Below, piece by piece: positions 16,012 through 40,058 of a stretch of DNA of 64,000 bases. Position numbers and translations under genes: made by a program. Position 1 is the stretch's first letter; each line of letters begins with the position of its first letter. The notes beneath the pieces are model-generated. The model ran no database searches. It was not told the DNA's origin and was given only the letters and a program-made list of their open reading frames with translations. Source of the DNA: Desulfomonile tiedjei DSM 6799 (GTDB lineage: Bacteria > Desulfobacterota > Desulfomonilia > Desulfomonilales > Desulfomonilaceae); assembly GCF_000266945.1 (NCBI RefSeq), contig NC_018025.1, positions 3,162,001 to 3,226,000 on the forward strand, in the 5' to 3' direction.

Positions 16012-16836
16012 TTAGTCGCTTCCGGGTTCCACCTGATATCCCTCTTCATTTAAGAGCCGAACGATTCCGGGAATGTGGGGAATGCCGACGAAAGCGGCAG
16101 TCTTGCCTTTTTCCAGGTACGGTTGCATGCGCTCGAAGAGTATGTGATCCCTGCGATCGATCACATACGGGCTTCTGGTGGGAAATCCGTAACGATTTGA
16201 ATATATCTGCTTCAAATTTCCTTCCAGGTACCATCTGGTGAAATCGCGAGTGTAATTGTCCCACTGCTCGATTCGCGAGAGGAAGTCCACAATATTATCG
16301 ATGGATAACGATTCAAGAACCTCTATTTGCTCGGGCATGGTTTCGAGAAACGCTATTGGTTTATTCAACTCCTGCGCCAAAGTGTATGCTTCCATATCCA
16401 CAGAAAACTTCCAGCCTTTTCTCCTCAAGAACGACGTATAGATGGTGAAAAAGGCCATCCAGGGCTTCATTTTGCGCAGCATGTCGAATATCGCCGTGTC
16501 AGGACTGGTCTGCACGAAATTCATGAAAGAAGCGTGTCTCGTACCGGAAGGAAGGAACACATTGAGAATCTCTTTGAGAGCACTATCCCCTAATGCACCG
16601 AACAAATCCATGTCTGAGGTTTCCACAACTCCGGAATCCGCAGCTTGCTCCATGTGCATCTGATCCAATGGCCCTTCGAACAACGCATAATCGGCGTCTG
16701 CAAGGATCTCCTTCAATGAAGACCTGAAACTGTAAGGGAAAAAATGAGCAGTTCCGACAAGACAAGACGTGTGCTTGGTGTTCGAAACGCTCCAGGCAGT
16801 CTTCAGTTTTCTTTCTTTGAGTCTTCTGAAAAACAT
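16012..16836 (-). CDS. TraB/GumN-family protein
   Basis: A protein of 274 residues with the scattered motifs of the TraB/GumN (Tiki-like) superfamily. These are 'SCLVGTAHFFP' near residue 25, 'DYALFEGP' near 50 and 'AFVGIPHIPGIVRLL' near the C-terminus. The conserved Gly-x-x-His and Glu residues are those thought to bind metal in this proposed metalloprotease fold. No signal peptide is evident, so it may act in the cytoplasm. It is convergent with the aminotransferase gene and on the same strand as the next acyltransferase-like gene, separated by about 67 bp. The cellular role is unknown. Confidence 0.72.
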   Translation of the reverse strand: MFFRRLKERKLKTAWSVSNTKHTSCLVGTAHFFPYSFRSSLKEILADADYALFEGPLDQMHMEQAADSGVVETSDMDLFGALGDSALKEILNVFLPSGTRHASFMNFVQTSPDTAIFDMLRKMKPWMAFFTIYTSFLRRKGWKFSVDMEAYTLAQELNKPIAFLETMPEQIEVLESLSIDNIVDFLSRIEQWDNYTRDFTRWYLEGNLKQIYSNRYGFPTRSPYVIDRRDHILFERMQPYLEKGKTAAFVGIPHIPGIVRLLNEEGYQVEPGSD

Positions 16837-16903: not shown

Positions 16904-17758
16904 CTATTGAGGGATAATTCGATTCAAGTAAGACATGAGCGATTCTGCAATACGCGGCTGCCTCACAGCAAGCTCGCACAGCTCGTATTTTCGTGAGGGG
17001 ACGCCTCCCCATTTTCGTTTGAACCTGCGAATTCCTTCATTTACTCCCAGTCCCAGGTGGATGTACGTTTTACCTTTCGCTCGACTGAGCTTTATCATTT
17101 CCAGAAAGAGGAGATCTGACACATAAGGAACATATGGTTCTTTCGAATAACAGCCGATCACATAGGTGGCGAATTCGGCCGGCCAAAGGTCAAGAACGTA
17201 AAACGCAGCGAGTTCTCCTTCGGCGGTCCATGCATTCAATAGGAAAGCATCGTTTGCAGACGCAAGATAGTGTTCCATACGGTCCATGAGAGCACGAATA
17301 CGTGGAGGCGGGGAAACCCGTTCAATGAATTCCATGCCCAGTTCTTTGTGATACTGCGTAAACGCTTTGCCGACTTCGACGGAGACCTGACGACCGGCTT
17401 TCTCTGCCACCGTTTTGAGACGGCCGGGAATTTCTTGTTCAAGCTGCAAAGTCAAATACTCATCGCTTTCATGTTCGGAACAGGCAAACCACCCGGATGG
17501 TAGTTCCGGCGCGATGAAGGCAATATGTATGGGATCGTATTTGCTTTTCACCATCTCGATGGTATTCCTGAAATCGTCAGCATCGAAATCTCTACCGATT
17601 GGATAGCCTATCAGGATAATTCTATTTGCGACACGACAGAAAAAATACCCATTGATGAGATACGGCTCCCCTCCCGATATCCCTACCATCAGCGGTATAC
17701 TGTGCTCAGGGATATAAGCTCCATGAAGGATTAGTTTCTCTTCGGGGTCAGGAATCAT
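16904..17758 (-). CDS. Acyltransferase-like protein, paralog A of a divergent pair
   Basis: A protein of 284 residues, clearly related to its divergent neighbour. Both start with a 'hEKhhhh-(H/R)-x-AxhPEx' segment, share 'hhhhGYPh' near residue 50, and end with 'LGLGVNEGIRRFKRKWG' (here) or 'LGLGLGPGVRRFKEKWG' (neighbour). That last motif resembles the substrate- or CoA-handling region of GNAT/FemAB-like aminoacyl or acyl transferases ('K...LH.G.G....G...FK.KWG'). The ATG at 17758 is chosen because the homology begins there. A TTG 39 bp further upstream would add an unmatched leader. No signal peptide is seen. The substrate is unknown; placement with a radical SAM gene suggests a shared modification pathway. 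Confidence 0.65.
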   Translation of the reverse strand: MIPDPEEKLILHGAYIPEHSIPLMVGISGGEPYLINGYFFCRVANRIILIGYPIGRDFDADDFRNTIEMVKSKYDPIHIAFIAPELPSGWFACSEHESDEYLTLQLEQEIPGRLKTVAEKAGRQVSVEVGKAFTQYHKELGMEFIERVSPPPRIRALMDRMEHYLASANDAFLLNAWTAEGELAAFYVLDLWPAEFATYVIGCYSKEPYVPYVSDLLFLEMIKLSRAKGKTYIHLGLGVNEGIRRFKRKWGGVPSRKYELCELAVRQPRIAESLMSYLNRIIPQ

Positions 17759-17904
17759 GCGTATCGATAAACACCCGAGGGCAAATGGGAAATCCAAAGC
17801 CTGCCTGCACGATCAATTCCGTTGACACTATTATTCCGATGACTATGATCCAAGATAGCTCACGAGATACTTTTTTCAAGTGATTATTGGATCGGACAGG
17901 ATTG

Positions 17905-18747
17905 GTGCTCACTGCAGCGGAAAAATACTTGATCTATCGTCATGCCTGCGTTCCCGAACAGGTTCCTGCGTACGTTCAGGCTGTTTCGGGTTTCGATCCG
18001 TTTCTTGGTGACAATTACGTGTATTTTGTGCGTGGCGGACATCTCCTTTTTGTAGGATATCCGCTTGCACCATCAGATAATGCCGATATGGTAACTGTTT
18101 TCGAGACGACGTACAACATGGTGAAACCGCATTCTGCGACTATACTGACTTCCCGCAACATGGAGATAAAGGGCTCCAAGCATCTGGCAGAATCAGATGA
18201 TTGGTACTTTCGCCTCGATCTTCCGGTGGAGAAGATTTCTGCTGAAAATGCGTATATGGTTCGGAGAGCGGCACGAGAACTCACCGTGTGCACCGGCACA
18301 TTCGGCTCCGAGCATGAAGGGATTGTGACTGAATTCTGCTCTCAGCGGGCCCTTTCAGAGGAGCACACAGCCATTTTCGAGAAAATTCAGCGTTATGTTT
18401 CCTCATCTCCCGGGAGCGTGATTCTTGAAGCGAGAAAAGGAGCCCAATTAGCTGCGTTCAACATTGTGGAAACGGGTTCACAGGATTTTCTCTATTATTT
18501 GTTCAATTTTCGCTCCCTGACTGATTCTGTGCCCGGATCATCAGACTTGCTGTTTCTCGAGATGATTCGTTTTGCCGAAGCTTCCGGCAAAAAAGCGATT
18601 AACCTGGGGCTCGGGCTCGGACCGGGTGTGAGACGCTTCAAAGAAAAATGGGGAGCATTTCCCTTTCTGAAACACAGCATTTTTACATTTCGCAGACACC
18701 ACGGAATATGGCATTCCCTCACCGAATTCCTCCGTAATCTGACCTGA
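17905..18747 (+). CDS. Acyltransferase-like protein, paralog B of a divergent pair
   Basis: A protein of 280 residues, homologous over its whole length to the divergently transcribed neighbour. Shared landmarks are 'VPEQVPAY' near residue 19, 'LLFVGYPLAP' near 50, 'SDLLFLEMIRFA' near 215 and the closing 'INLGLGLGPGVRRFKEKWGA'. The last is typical of GNAT-fold FemAB/DUF2156-like transferases. The GTG start at 17905 matches the paralog's start; AGGA precedes it at only 3 bp, and a TTG at 17887 is an alternative. The radical SAM gene follows after 55 bp on the same strand and is probably co-transcribed. The two promoters must share the roughly 145-bp gap between the paralogs. Confidence 0.65.
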   Translation: MLTAAEKYLIYRHACVPEQVPAYVQAVSGFDPFLGDNYVYFVRGGHLLFVGYPLAPSDNADMVTVFETTYNMVKPHSATILTSRNMEIKGSKHLAESDDWYFRLDLPVEKISAENAYMVRRAARELTVCTGTFGSEHEGIVTEFCSQRALSEEHTAIFEKIQRYVSSSPGSVILEARKGAQLAAFNIVETGSQDFLYYLFNFRSLTDSVPGSSDLLFLEMIRFAEASGKKAINLGLGLGPGVRRFKEKWGAFPFLKHSIFTFRRHHGIWHSLTEFLRNLT

Positions 18748-18802
18748 TTCGCTCTGTTTGGCACAGAGGAGGCGGAACGGCCTCCATACATGGGAATTGA
18801 AT

Positions 18803-20017
18803 ATGGAAAAAGATCTAAAAACAACTCATGACGTCCCCAAGAAAGGACTCTCGGGTCTAGTCAAGAAGATAGCGTCGTGGTTTTCCGGACCGGCACCAGA
18901 GCACGTACCTCGTTCAGCTCAGGACACAACTCATTCCCAGGAGTCCCACAGGCCCTGGAGGCTCTTGCAGGTCGAGACGGCCCTGGCCTGTAACCTCCGG
19001 TGCGTCATGTGTCCATGGAAAGATTATCGGCAAAGAGCTGTTCACGGAGGCGTCATGTCCCCCGAGATCTGGGAGGCAGTGAGGCCCCATTTGAAAAAAG
19101 CGCAGACAGTAGACTTTACCGGCGGTGGAGAACCGCTGTTGCAGCCGAATCTGGCTCATTGGATCAGGGAAGCGAAATCCGAAGGTTGCATGGCCGGTAT
19201 TCTCACCAATGCTGTTCTCCTGAACGACAGGACTGCACGGGATCTGCTCGATACAGGCCTCGATTGGATATGTATATCCATTGACGGTTCAAGCAAGGAA
19301 GAATACGAAACCATTCGAGTCGGAGCAAATTTCGATCAGGTGCGGCAGAATGTGGAGCATTTTTCCAAATTGCGGACCGGCAAATTTCCTAAGATGATGA
19401 TTAATCACGTAATGATGCGGGCCAATGTCAATCAGCTCGAACAAATGGTAAGACTCTGTGCCGACCTGGGAATCGATCAGATCAATTTCAAACAATGTGA
19501 GGTCATTCGCGACACTCATGGAAAAGGACTCGGTCTGTTCGGGAGAACGGAAACACGCGAGATAAAACAGTTTCAACGAGCAGTAGCAGCGGCACGGAAG
19601 CTCGCTCAAAAATTCGGCATGGAGACCACAGCCTCTTCCTTTCTCCCCGAAGAACGGCCGGTGTGCGAACAAGACCCGAGAAATTCCATGTTCATCAGGT
19701 ACGACGGCCTGGTTGCTCCATGCATCAATCTGGCAAATAGCGGACCGACTGTTTTTCTCGGGCAAGAAGTTGTATTGCCCGATGTCCATTACGGAACACT
19801 ACCTGAATGTGACCTTCAGGACCTTTGGCAAAGCGAATTGTGCGGATTTTACCGTCGAACCTTTGAAGCGCGTACAAGAGAATACGACAACGTGTTCATG
19901 GAAGGACTGATGGCAGACTCGAGGCGCACGCCGGAGCGTATGCTGGAAATGGCTATCAAACGTATGCCCAAGCCGCCAAAAGGATGTGAGATCTGTCACT
20001 ATTTATATGGAATCTGA
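18803..20017 (+). CDS. Radical SAM/SPASM-type protein
   Basis: A radical S-adenosylmethionine enzyme of 404 residues. The [4Fe-4S] motif CNLRCVMC (C63, C67, C70) binds the SAM cluster. 'VDFTGGGEPLLQP' is the conserved GGEP loop and 'WICISIDGSSKEEYE' the next strand. C-terminal cysteines ('VAPCINLANSG', 'CDLQDLW', 'CGFYRR', 'CEICHY') resemble a SPASM/twitch extension with auxiliary clusters. Such enzymes modify peptides, sugars or lipids. No precursor peptide is visible nearby. An ATG at 18803 is used; a GAGGAGG about 30 bp upstream is too far to serve it, so an earlier TTG (18758 or 18797) is possible. It follows acyltransferase-like paralog B closely. Confidence 0.85.
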   Translation: MEKDLKTTHDVPKKGLSGLVKKIASWFSGPAPEHVPRSAQDTTHSQESHRPWRLLQVETALACNLRCVMCPWKDYRQRAVHGGVMSPEIWEAVRPHLKKAQTVDFTGGGEPLLQPNLAHWIREAKSEGCMAGILTNAVLLNDRTARDLLDTGLDWICISIDGSSKEEYETIRVGANFDQVRQNVEHFSKLRTGKFPKMMINHVMMRANVNQLEQMVRLCADLGIDQINFKQCEVIRDTHGKGLGLFGRTETREIKQFQRAVAAARKLAQKFGMETTASSFLPEERPVCEQDPRNSMFIRYDGLVAPCINLANSGPTVFLGQEVVLPDVHYGTLPECDLQDLWQSELCGFYRRTFEARTREYDNVFMEGLMADSRRTPERMLEMAIKRMPKPPKGCEICHYLYGI

Positions 20018-20023
20018 TGTTTA

Positions 20024-21373
20024 TCACCGCAAAGGATCGCCCCGCTCTGCTTTTTGCGGTTGCTGCTCCCGAGCAGGCTCCCGCAATCGCACCATAAGCC
20101 ATTTCTCAGTCTTGTTCCGGCCGAAGTGAACGAGCGCTTCTGTCTGATCCTGGGTCAAATTGTATAGTCCAGTTTCCATAATCAGATCGGTGTTCTTTCC
20201 GTCTGCAAAGCCCCACGCAACCCTCTGGGTGTCTTTGTCAACCATTCCCTTGATCGGTCTGGCCGTATTCGTACGGGTGTCAAAATATGTGCCTTTGATT
20301 ACACCGTCTTTGCTCACCATTAATTGGAGCACCGTGCCGGAATCGGTAGCCTGACCGTGACTCAGAGCGAACACACCAAGCGGGAGCCAATCTTCGGCTG
20401 CAGTTTCGGCAGTGGATGGAACTCCACCTGCAAGATTGCTCGCTTGCTGATAGTATTCATCTGCGGTTGCTACTTGCCGGTCTCCCATGTAAACGATATC
20501 GTTCTGATAATAAATGTAGGTTCCATAGTCGTAGTAGATAGGTTCAGAGTACACGCCGCCATAAGCCGAACCGGCCAGCCAGCCGATAGCCAATCCCCAG
20601 GTTGCTGGACGCCACCAGTGATTCCAGGCCCACTGGTATTTTCCTGTTTCATTCCAATATTTCTTCGCAAGTTGCGGGTGATCTCGCCACCATTGGGGTG
20701 TGAAAAGGTCATCATATCTGTTGTAGAGATTGCCGCGAATCTGGTCGGCCTGCAACTTTTGAGCCGCGGTTTTTTGGACTGGAGGAGACGTATCTTTGGC
20801 AACCTCCCCCGAGCCATATCTATCGAGAAGACCTCTCCCTTCTGCGGATACAGGCCTGTCACCTGTGCCCAATCGATCTCCCGGTCTGATTCCTTCCCCG
20901 CGGTTCTGATGCTGGCCTTCCAGCAATCTGCGGGCACCTTCAATACCTAGAGCTCCGGCGGCCGCTCCCGTTCCGTACTTGAGCACATCGGAACCGATTC
21001 CCGATCCCTGCTTGCCTTGCATGTTCAGGAAATTTTGAACTTGTCCCTGAGTAGGTTTTGAATAATTTCCGGAGCCTGAAGGCTTGAATAGCTTTGAGTT
21101 TGGATTTGTTCCCAGCCGCTGACTGGTAGATCCGATTCCTCGCTGTGATTGTATCGAGCCGGATCGATTCATGCCCTGCCCGGCCCACGAGCCCCTGTAT
21201 TGAGTTCCGTTTTGCCGAGTAACGTTACCACGAAACTCGCCCCGTCCCACGTTTGCGCCTCCAAAGCCTCCTTCCATCCTACCGCCCGGACCGAAACGCC
21301 TGGCGAGAGCCTCACCAGCGAAAAAGGAGAATGTGAAGATAAGTGCGAATAGCACAGATCCAAATCGTTTCAT
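20024..21373 (-). CDS. Exported Gly/Arg/Gln-rich protein, mu-protocadherin-like
   Basis: A secreted or envelope protein of 449 residues. A clear Sec signal peptide occupies about residues 1-24 ('MKRFGSVLFALIFTFSFFAG', ALA cleavage region). A low-complexity stretch rich in Gly, Arg, Gln and Ser follows to about residue 180. Next comes a Trp/Tyr-rich domain ('WWRDHPQLAKKYW', 'WAWNHWWRPATW', 'IYYDYGTYIYYQNDIVYMG') and a final globular region with 'LFHFG'-like strands. The pattern matches proteins often mis-annotated as mu-protocadherin-like in Planctomycetes and Deltaproteobacteria. The start is fixed by AGAGGTG 5 bp before the ATG. It converges with the radical SAM gene after 6 bp. Function unknown. 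Confidence 0.75.
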   Translation of the reverse strand: MKRFGSVLFALIFTFSFFAGEALARRFGPGGRMEGGFGGANVGRGEFRGNVTRQNGTQYRGSWAGQGMNRSGSIQSQRGIGSTSQRLGTNPNSKLFKPSGSGNYSKPTQGQVQNFLNMQGKQGSGIGSDVLKYGTGAAAGALGIEGARRLLEGQHQNRGEGIRPGDRLGTGDRPVSAEGRGLLDRYGSGEVAKDTSPPVQKTAAQKLQADQIRGNLYNRYDDLFTPQWWRDHPQLAKKYWNETGKYQWAWNHWWRPATWGLAIGWLAGSAYGGVYSEPIYYDYGTYIYYQNDIVYMGDRQVATADEYYQQASNLAGGVPSTAETAAEDWLPLGVFALSHGQATDSGTVLQLMVSKDGVIKGTYFDTRTNTARPIKGMVDKDTQRVAWGFADGKNTDLIMETGLYNLTQDQTEALVHFGRNKTEKWLMVRLREPAREQQPQKAERGDPLR

Positions 21374-22032
21374 GGCGCACCTCTTTCGTAGTCTACATGA
21401 CACGGATTCATTTCTGCCGGGCAATTGAGACGTTCTCATTCAGCAGCGATTTCCCTGTGCACACAGCCCCATTTTGGACATTTCCATCCCGGATCGAGAT
21501 CTCTTCTGAAGGTTAAGGCTTCAAGGTGCTACAGCCCTTCACGCGTTCACATTCATAGTGTCCGCTCAATGAGAAAGGTTACGGTTCAAACCAACATAAA
21601 ATATCATTCCCGCGGTCAATTAGCACAAGTGTTTTTTCATCTCTTACATTCGCGTACATCATGTTCGGGATGACATTTCGTCTCACCAGGCACGCGCACT
21701 ATTCATGTGAGACGTCTCACATGAATGTCTTGTAGCACACGTTGAAACCTACCATTTCGTGTACCTACTCTGACTTTCATACATGAATGAACGATTATTC
21801 CATGGTGCAAAAAGAGCCTTAAGATCGCCGACTCTGCACTGGGAGACCTTTCAGAGAATTGGGAACATTGAGGCACGTTTATTGATTCGGACTTTCCACG
21901 TGTACCGGCTCTTACTCGCCACAAGCAGAGAAAACCACGGACACAATGCACACGCCGACACTAAGTATGCACAGGTGAAAAGGACTGCCTTTTCACATCA
22001 CAACGTTTCGGCCATAGACTTTGGAGGTATGA
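21374..22032. other. Divergent intergenic region with large palindrome
   Basis: This 659-bp spacer lies between two genes that point away from each other, both for exported proteins. It carries a perfect 26-bp palindrome (separate entry). Short frames inside it show no ribosome site or known family. Promoters of both genes should lie here; none is strong enough to call. Confidence 0.5.
21701..21726. promoter_or_regulatory. Perfect 26-bp palindrome, candidate operator
   Basis: Two 13-bp arms (ATTCATGTGAGAC and its exact reverse complement) meet without a spacer at 21713/21714. Perfect symmetry with no loop and no following T-run favours a dimeric-protein binding site over a terminator. It lies about 330 bp upstream of the plus-strand formamidase start and about 330 bp from the minus-strand exported-protein start, so it could control either or both. 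Confidence 0.55.
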
Positions 22033-38509: not shown

Positions 38510-39484
38510 TTAATCCGTTTCCCCGGAAAAGGACCGTGCATAGGAATTGCCAAAAAAAACTTTCATTCCCGCAATGATGGATTCCAAATTGCCTCTGAAA
38601 GCCAGCGTCATCTCGTTATGAGCTGCAAATCCGCACATGGAGCATTCCGAAGGGCCGCGATTCTTCAAATAGCACCCATGAAGTACTGTGCCATCCGGTT
38701 CCGCGTTCGCGAGCAATCCTGCTTCGCAACTCCATGTTTCTCTTTTCAGTTCTTCAAGACTTGCGAACGAATTCATGATGGGATATCCGAGCCGTTTCAT
38801 CATCATGAGTTGGTCCAATAGCATCGCCCGTTCCGCATGGGGCAGGAACAGCGAGTCAGGTAGGCCATCGTACGGATAATAAAACTGAAGTGTTATGCCG
38901 TCGACTACACCCAGCAAGAGCCCCACCAGTTTTGGGATACTATCGGCATTTTCCGTACTGATGGTCGTGCTGACATACGGACGTGATTTTGGAGCTTGCT
39001 GCAGATTCCTCATCACTCGGGAGTACGTTCCTTTGCCTCTCACCCTATCGTGAATGTAAGGTGGCCCGTCGAGACTGACCCACAGCCGGTCCAATGGGAG
39101 CCCCTGCCATGAGAGTGTCCCGTTCGTTGTTAGGCAGACGCATGGAAATAATTCACGTGCCGCCCACACTACATCTTTAATTCCTCGATTACCGTCTCGC
39201 CAGAGGAGCGGTTCTCCACCTTCAAAGATGATTATTCGCGCCCCCATTGATCTGAGACGGTGCATAGTGTCCAAGACTTCTTCAAAAGTGGGTTCAGGTC
39301 CGGACCGGAGCCAGTATGGACAGTGAGTACATCGAAGATTGCACCGGTGGGTGATTTTGTACCCCGCGAGAACCGGGACAGTCTTGCCGAAAAGACGATA
39401 GGACAGAAAAGGTCCGGCAAATTGCAGAACCTTTGCCACTGAAGCAGCTTTTTGACGGAGTATATTTTTCTTGTTACCATTCAT
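38510..39484 (-). CDS. Radical SAM protein
   Basis: Radical S-adenosylmethionine enzyme of 324 residues from the ATG at 39484. The cluster motif is CNLRCTHC (C48, C52, C55), preceded by 'GYKITHR'. The GGEP loop is 'IIFEGGEPLLW' and the following strand is 'LWVSLDGPPYIHD'. Late cysteines ('WSCEAGLLANAEPDG', 'HGCYLKNRGPSECSMC') suggest an extra cluster. An alternative ATG at 39502 would add six residues. It is divergent from the alkylguanine methyltransferase gene, and the two starts are only about 60 bp apart. Substrate unknown; similar in type to the radical SAM protein at 18803 but not a close copy. Confidence 0.85.
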   Translation of the reverse strand: MNGNKKNILRQKAASVAKVLQFAGPFLSYRLFGKTVPVLAGYKITHRCNLRCTHCPYWLRSGPEPTFEEVLDTMHRLRSMGARIIIFEGGEPLLWRDGNRGIKDVVWAARELFPCVCLTTNGTLSWQGLPLDRLWVSLDGPPYIHDRVRGKGTYSRVMRNLQQAPKSRPYVSTTISTENADSIPKLVGLLLGVVDGITLQFYYPYDGLPDSLFLPHAERAMLLDQLMMMKRLGYPIMNSFASLEELKRETWSCEAGLLANAEPDGTVLHGCYLKNRGPSECSMCGFAAHNEMTLAFRGNLESIIAGMKVFFGNSYARSFSGETD

Positions 39485-39542
39485 GAGATCAGCATACCCC
39501 ATGAGAACCGGATGTACGCTCAATTTTTTTTGGAAAGGAAAA

Positions 39543-40058
39543 ATGAACTCTGAATCCAGTGCAGAAAAAGCGCGTTCGGCAGAAATAGTCATCCATCATT
39601 TTTTTTCCGACCTGGTGGGATGGCTTGAATTGCAGGCATCGAAAGACGGTGTCCGCTCGATTTCCTTTGTAGAAGCTCCAGAATCCCTCAGCGCGGCGTC
39701 CGATGACCCCGTCATATCTGAGTTGCTCATGCAATTGGATGCCTATTTTGCCGGAGAGCTTACGGAATTTTCCATACCGCTTGCACCACCAGGAGGAACC
39801 CTGTTTCAAAGGCGAGTCTGGGACAGACTCATGGCAATTCCCTACGGCGAAACGAGATCATATGGCGAAATTGCAGTTGAAGTGGGGGTCCCGAAAGGCG
39901 CTCGAGCTGTAGGGCTCGCAAATAAAAAGAACTTTTTGCCTATCGTGATTCCCTGCCATAGAGTAATCCGAAGTAACGGCGATCTGGGAGGATATGATTC
40001 CGGAGTGGCAATCAAGCAGAAATTGCTGCAATTCGAGTCTCGGAAGAATCGGCATTAG
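39543..40058 (+). CDS. Methylated-DNA-protein cysteine methyltransferase (Ogt/AGT)
   Basis: Suicide DNA-repair protein of 171 residues. It transfers an alkyl group from O6-alkylguanine to its own cysteine, here the Cys in 'IVIPCHRVIRSNGDLGGY', the invariant PCHRV motif. 'FQRRVWDRLMAIPYGETRSYGEIA' is the conserved DNA-binding helix region before it. The first 60 residues form the less conserved N-terminal domain. The ATG at 39543 has AAAGGAA just upstream; longer in-frame starts have none and would run into the divergent radical SAM gene. Convergent with the DUF6178-like gene. Confidence 0.93.
   Translation: MNSESSAEKARSAEIVIHHFFSDLVGWLELQASKDGVRSISFVEAPESLSAASDDPVISELLMQLDAYFAGELTEFSIPLAPPGGTLFQRRVWDRLMAIPYGETRSYGEIAVEVGVPKGARAVGLANKKNFLPIVIPCHRVIRSNGDLGGYDSGVAIKQKLLQFESRKNRH

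Follow-up and report, generated by a model that had tools for sequence, protein, structure and literature searches.

The analysis presented here concerns four genes in a 64,000-nucleotide stretch, called the window, of the Desulfomonile tiedjei DSM 6799 genome (contig NC_018025.1, positions 3,162,001 to 3,226,000, forward strand). Genes A and B encode paralogous tandem-GNAT proteins, T encodes a TraB/PrgY/GumN-family protein and R encodes a radical S-adenosylmethionine (SAM)/SPASM protein. The co-occurrence, adjacency, order and fusions of these genes show that the four make up a single functional unit. Their positions in the window, with lengths in amino acids (aa) and base pairs (bp), are:

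16012..16836, minus strand: T, TraB/PrgY/GumN-family protein, 274 aa, the partner of A
16904..17758, minus strand: A, tandem-GNAT protein of 284 aa with a predicted FemX/MprF-like fold, ATG at 17758
17759..17901, no strand: divergent intergenic region of 143 bp between A and B
17902..18747, plus strand: B, tandem-GNAT paralog of A, 281 aa, start TTG at 17902 or GTG at 17905
18803..20017, plus strand: R, radical SAM/SPASM protein, 404 aa

A preliminary description of this DNA saw end-to-end paralogs pointing away from each other across a gap of about 145 bp, one of them 55 bp ahead of a radical SAM gene, and the measurements agree with it. The gap is 143 bp, R starts 55 bp beyond the end of B, and T lies on the same strand as A, 67 bp downstream. 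A and B are true paralogs. They align from end to end with 85 of 285 positions identical (30%), the global alignment score lies 20.9 standard deviations above the mean of 300 shuffles, and a one-sequence BLASTP search gives E 1e-33. No third copy was found in the 6.5-Mb genome with B as the query at E 10 or better. The gap holds a sigma-70-like candidate promoter facing B (TTGACA-16-TATGAT, 17822 to 17849 on the plus strand, 11 of 12 consensus positions) and a weaker promoter-like candidate site on the minus strand (17879 to 17852); a promoter consensus scan of the gap returned two sites against a mean of 0.3 in shuffled sequences. No Rfam RNA matched between 14000 and 22000 of the window. The unit ends 43 bp and 6 bp from the adjoining open reading frames (ORFs), and these distances leave no space for a precursor gene at either end. 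The neighbor at 6 bp, a glycine-rich ORF on the minus strand (20024 to 21379), is convergent with R, has an N-terminus that looks like a signal by eye, and has no Pfam match.

Distribution and order of the four genes

The distribution of the genes was studied in 395 genomes of the window's phylum, Desulfobacterota, and in 295 genomes of Nitrospirota, the phylum of the Thermodesulfovibrio locus L012. A profile of A/B matches 30 of the former and 10 of the latter, and 36 of the 40 positive genomes have at least two matches. Three of the four genomes with a single match (G132, G177, G187) are interrupted by contig ends. With three more genomes of the window's family (G001, G002, G011) there are 43 positive genomes, and each of the four genes was searched for in their loci with its own profile. 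In these loci and in the 395-genome sample, T is the partner most closely tied to A/B. At E 1e-20, a level at which other TraB proteins score lower and are not counted, T matches 29 of the 395 genomes, and all 29 are among the 30 that are positive for A/B; the TraB subfamily of T is thus met only alongside A/B in this sample. The remaining genome is G187, where A is interrupted by a contig end.

R is found at the same locus as A/B in 28 of the 43 genomes, one of them (G092) with a truncated copy. In G252 it lies on the opposite strand, about 1.3 kb from B. Seven of the 15 genomes that have no R at the locus have a contig edge next to the cassette, and in G001 and G011 R is on a contig other than that of A/B. 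In the window's family (18 genomes) all six genomes with A/B have an R ortholog of at least 52% identity, compared with one of the 12 genomes that have no A/B (G008; Fisher p 3.8e-4). R homologs without A/B matches occur in this family at L028 (G008), L030 (G005) and L031 (G015), and the relatives in G005 and G015 are 35% identical to R. Those of L030 and L031 adjoin genes that by eye resemble a PF03601 permease at their starts, and a YedE transporter, also recognized by eye, lies beside the one in L030. The R orthologs of G001 (L023:243-2165) and G011 (L029:2345-4231) are part of 640-aa and 628-aa frames with an N-terminal short-chain-dehydrogenase part, identified by a family search in L023 and by likeness in L029; A, B and T were not seen on these contigs.

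Gene order and fusions also tie the four genes together. A and T are same-strand neighbors separated by short gaps in 30 loci; eight genomes have them fused into one protein, and one genome, G004, has a fusion of B with R. Most frequently (15 loci, fusions counted) the genes run A-T-B-R on a single strand; in one of the loci with this order, L071, B is split into two frames. The order B-A-T is found in five loci, two of which have R. Two Nitrospirota loci (L103, L105) have the order A-T-B-T2-R, and both T copies of L105 match PF01963. Because the second T stands behind B, between B and R, each transferase in these loci has its own T. The A-T pair is on a different contig from B in G213 and G067. 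G092 has one 658-aa frame (L084:5453-7429) made of A together with an initial part of T and the latter half of R; no B was found in the scanned locus, and the frame looks like an in-frame deletion through the cassette.

The relationship between A and B was examined with a quick maximum-likelihood tree of 76 sequences, with support from the Shimodaira-Hasegawa-like approximate likelihood ratio test (SH-aLRT) and no bootstrap. The same 76 sequences, together with 38 T and 26 R sequences, were used for residue conservation; sequences covering less than 85% of the profile were left out, as was L013, which is apparently the same as L072 (G307). One branch with SH-aLRT 100 divides 39 A from 37 B sequences. 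The names of the tips were taken from hidden Markov model scores, and the topology is independent of them. Members of both groups are present in both phyla, so A and B are the products of one old split and both copies have been retained in two phyla. This single, fully supported branch makes it most likely that A and B differ in role.

These results support the picture given in the preliminary description in part and change it in several ways. The paralogs are not mostly apart from radical SAM genes, as the count of 28 of 43 genomes shows. The TraB-like gene does adjoin A as described, but it is a core member of the cassette and not a bystander. The proposal of a pathway with two transferases and one radical enzyme keeps those parts, while its three-gene view leaves out the partner that is linked most tightly. 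The divergent layout, which had been treated as essential, occurs in five of the 43 genomes, all in the window's family, and was rejected as a meaningful feature; being confined to these five genomes, it is most likely a local rearrangement.

Fold and conserved residues of the proteins

The alignments behind the AlphaFold2 models of A and B had six rows, and the interpretation leaves aside the C-terminal ends of the models, where confidence is low. The A model has a mean predicted local distance difference test (pLDDT) value of 89.5 and a predicted template modeling (pTM) score of 0.85, and the B model has values of 82.0 and 0.81. The best Foldseek matches of the A model in the PDB are L-PGS, FemX and A-PGS/MprF, with E values from 1.7e-12 (4v36, L-PGS) upward. 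The candidates supplied by Foldseek were rescored with VIA-align. A aligns with FemX 4ii9 over 264 residues at Z 20.2 and a root mean square deviation of 4.0, and its range over FemX structures is Z 19.6 to 20.2. B scores Z 20.6 with 2hqy, an uncharacterized Bacteroides protein, and 18.9 to 19.4 with FemX (19.4 for 6snr). Sbb17 (9wqw, 9wqx), an aminoacyl-tRNA-dependent peptide synthase, scores Z 18.7 to 19.7, MprF/L-PGS chains about 16.4 to 18.5, and tandem GNATs of the coenzyme A (CoA) type 15.2 or less. The FemX alignment covers model residues 1 to 273 of A and 1 to 272 of B, that is, two GNAT domains and the whole chain. The prediction that the paralogs have a GNAT/FemAB-like fold is therefore supported by the models of both, and neither model adopts a different fold.

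Four residues of the C-terminal domain, F246, K247, K249 and W250 in A numbering, are invariant in all 76 A/B sequences. A 2026 review on related enzymes names Lys305 as the catalytic residue of FemX, and for DhpH-C describes Lys329 as essential with a contribution from Phe328 (PMC12945691). Model residue 273 pairs with FemX 332, which would place K247 near FemX 305-306 assuming no gap, since the comparison uses the alignment ends only. The predicted fold and the conserved residues lead us to read A and B tentatively as soluble aminoacyl transferases of the FemX/MprF structural class.

T belongs to the PF01963 family (E 6.4e-32, 111.9 bits, cut-off 26.8). Tiki/TraB metallohydrolases have two GxxH motifs and conserved acidic residues, and T keeps both; G28, H31, E54, D147, E165, R229, D230, G251 and H254 are identical in 38 of 38 sequences. 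A search of the PDB with the T profile gave as its best match a short, unconvincing alignment to an acetyltransferase at E 0.011. Judging by its family, T may be a metal-dependent hydrolase. R matches PF04055 (E 2.6e-17) and PF13186 (E 1.1e-4), both above cut-off; the CxxxCxxC motif is present in 26 of 26 R sequences, and four further Cys residues are conserved in 24 to 26 of them. The nearest NCBIfam models of the window's R are TIGR04311 (146 bits, cut-off 400) and TIGR04317 (134 bits, cut-off 380). The 11 R-type proteins that were scanned score 81 to 162 bits, well under the cut-offs, which places R outside both maturase models. A further ORF with a radical-SAM-like match lies elsewhere in the window (38510 to 39592, minus strand). 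Over 209 aa it shares 29% identity with an L076 protein that we take to be a heme-type radical SAM enzyme.

Surroundings of the cassette and dissimilatory sulfur metabolism

Five of the 43 genomes, from three families that all belong to the window's phylum, have a dsrA-type sulfite reductase gene no more than about 8 kb from the closest gene of the cassette; a rough uniform model gives about 0.24 expected cases within 10 kb. In G213 (L074; 566 bits to TIGR02064) and G163 dsrA is beside the B-R half, in G120 and G348 it is within about 8 kb of the cassette, and in G002 it was called by Pfam NIR_SIR and clustering with L074. Across the sampled carriers dsrA is present in 33 of 40. In the window's phylum it is over cut-off in 27 of 30 cassette genomes and 161 of 365 others (p 5.8e-7, a value that ignores kinship); in five of the 27 (G065, G163, G287, G307, G388) this was judged by E-value, and the genomes in which dsrA is not over cut-off are G133, G187 and G268.

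Of the 43 genomes, 39 have a permease of the PF03601 family, and in 11 of these, drawn from both phyla, it is no more than 10 kb from A or B. Its best named model is the YeiH-type TIGR00698, under its cut-off. In G132, G160 and G256 it is about 4-6 kb from dsrA and away from the cassette. The permease is divergent from A at L105:4902-6152, L103:10005-11255 and L102:2379-3629; in L105 it has an N-terminal zinc-ribbon domain (Pfam), and those of L103 and L102 start alike. Proteins of about 200 aa assigned to NF038143 (HYxxLL) occur near the cassette and the permease at L063:5944-7183, L065:4133-5366 and L082:2438-3037, with pairs in L063 and L065; the assignment was made by NCBIfam scan for L065 and L082 and by BLAST for L063.

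The sulfur link does not extend to all carriers. The Nitrospirota genomes studied show no dsrA enrichment (six of 10 cassette genomes and 123 of 285 others, p 0.34), and dsrA is near the cassette in none of the six dsrA-bearing carriers among them, among the places listed. The window's genome has its best dsrA match more than 1 Mb from the cassette, and both of its permeases are also far away. For these reasons the connection of the cassette with dissimilatory sulfur metabolism, for which the evidence is weak to moderate, is a lead and not a result.

Other neighbors were considered and rejected as functional evidence, because each is found in one family among the cassette loci. Aldehyde ferredoxin oxidoreductase genes are near the cassette in L067, L069, L071 and L089, all of family f21, and are seen with a 61-aa ferredoxin in L067 and L069. 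In family f26 a YedE transporter is near the cassette in two loci, and genes presumed from their sequences, and not by family search, to be hemB-like and heme-type radical SAM genes are near it in three.

Proposed role, alternatives and known systems

What the four-gene set makes or attaches is probably a small group derived from amino acids. The arrangement that we tentatively favor, with a likelihood that stops short of even, is that A and B would be tRNA-dependent aminoacyl transferases acting in series, T a dedicated hydrolase and R a radical maturase. In this scheme A and B would move amino acids from charged tRNAs to a common acceptor, one after another, much as FemX, FemA and FemB act in series. 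T, which is fused or tightly coupled to A, may trim, release or proofread the aminoacylated product, and R may carry out a radical modification of the unit made by A and B. The likely acceptor is a protein or small molecule whose gene or synthesis lies outside the cassette.

Several observations weigh against this proposal. By sequence, neither A nor B reaches the cut-off of any named family: A has 16.7 of 22 bits to PF13480 (Acetyltransf_6) and B has 17.1 of 27.5 bits to PF09924 (DUF2156). A profile-profile comparison (hhalign) of A/B with 19 DUF2156 relatives, drawn from 30 fetched loci, is not significant (E 0.12), a PDB search with the A/B profile gave three chance-level matches (E 0.78 and above), and PF02388 has no match in the genome at E 0.001. 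No acceptor for A/B was found. The short precursor peptide that the preliminary description had raised was also sought among 1350 small ORFs within 1.2 kb of the cassette at 45 loci, and no group of precursor or carrier peptides spans four families; the best group spans three, the others shown two, and they look like chance or overlap with larger genes. R was not found at the locus, where there is room for it, in G067, G278, G061, G420, G586 and G503, and the rest of these genomes was not searched; R in these six is either dispensable or located elsewhere.

The fold itself leaves room for A and B to be tandem GNAT acyltransferases of the ordinary, CoA-dependent type that work with R and T in a small maturation pathway. 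Many CoA enzymes share this fold, Z values of at least 8 with the A model are reached by 850 of 999 aligned chains from all kinds of GNAT, and the weak match of A is to Acetyltransf_6. MprF-type folds score just 1 to 3 Z units above CoA-type tandem GNATs, which are, however, 4 to 5 units under FemX. The CoA pyrophosphate-binding motif of GNATs, Q/RxxGxG/A, is present in none of the 76 A/B sequences in the regions of A residues 44-62 and 196-222, and we consider a CoA-dependent role unlikely. It is comparably improbable that A and B aminoacylate a protein at its N-terminus or a lysine, like bacterial Bpt/ATE or, in its logic, EF-P modification, with R rearranging the added residue and T removing the tags. 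The pairing of aminoacyl transfer with a radical SAM enzyme resembles EF-P lysylation, no precursor peptide was found in the cassette, and there are weak matches to the arginyltransferase model PRK01305 (E 0.13 for A, E 5.5e-4 for B of L012), but these score 11.7 and 19.4 of 170 bits, far under the cut-off, and no conserved target protein was identified.

A role in metalloenzyme or cofactor maturation has a smaller chance again. R would then mature an enzyme of the tungsten, selenium or siroheme/heme type, with A, B and T acting on the same cofactor. R is nearest to the TIGR04317 and TIGR04311 maturases, and the aldehyde ferredoxin oxidoreductase genes (four loci), YedE (two loci) and presumed hemB-like and heme-type radical SAM genes (three loci) would fit such enzymes; yet each of these neighbors, confined to one family, may be a single event, and R scores 81-162 bits where 380-400 are called for. 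Least probable of all is that A and B modify the envelope by aminoacylating a lipid or peptidoglycan, as MprF and FemX do. The nearest solved folds are indeed envelope enzymes, but unlike full MprF the A and B frames have no membrane part beyond the 280-aa GNAT pair, and we know of no FemX or MprF that has both a radical SAM/SPASM enzyme and a TraB protein as partners.

Beyond the tentative scheme of serial transferases, hydrolase and maturase, it is conceivable but doubtful that the set is an assembly line that is fed by tRNA, works without the ribosome, occurs mainly in bacteria with dsrA and serves dissimilatory sulfur metabolism. Two FemX-like transferases would make an aminoacyl or dipeptidyl unit, the SPASM radical enzyme would remodel it, and the dedicated TraB-type hydrolase would release or edit it to give a new cofactor or protein modification. 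The four proteins that travel together in two phyla are a testable module. They could give bacterial TraB/GumN proteins a biochemical setting, could extend tRNA-dependent aminoacyl transfer beyond the chemistry of cell walls and antibiotics to a conserved pathway, and could point to a new modification, perhaps one that is part of the dissimilatory sulfite reductase system.

A and B resemble the FemABX proteins in having a tandem GNAT fold from end to end (Z about 19-20), and their invariant Phe-Lys in the C-terminal domain may be a further shared feature. They differ in having no significant sequence similarity to FemABX, in their length of about 280 aa compared with about 335-400 aa, and in their linkage to T and R. 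With the C-terminal domain of MprF/L-PGS and with DUF2156 they share the fold (4v36, E 1.7e-12; Z 16.4-18.5) and the weak Pfam match of B (17.1 bits, cut-off 27.5); however, they lack the membrane part, and the profile-profile comparison with the 19 DUF2156 relatives reached only E 0.12. A and B fall in the same fold class as Sba18/Sbb17 (9wqx, Z 19.7), enzymes that, according to the review, add single amino acids to pathway intermediates (PMC12945691). Radical SAM enzymes are not mentioned among the matches listed from that review, and a TraB partner was not searched for. The closest in pathway logic to the proposed scheme are the PEARL pathways, for example that of 3-thiaglutamate, where an amino acid supplied by tRNA undergoes modification while attached to a carrier and is then freed by proteolysis (PMC9016710). 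PEARLs are LanB-like enzymes that use a ribosomal peptide as substrate (PMC12945691), whereas here the transferases have a GNAT fold and no peptide gene was found. The A-T-B-R cassette is not described among the matches listed from the open-access literature, as far as its text was seen. Taken singly, the four proteins show folds or signatures of known superfamilies; their combination and the dedicated TraB subfamily appear to be new.

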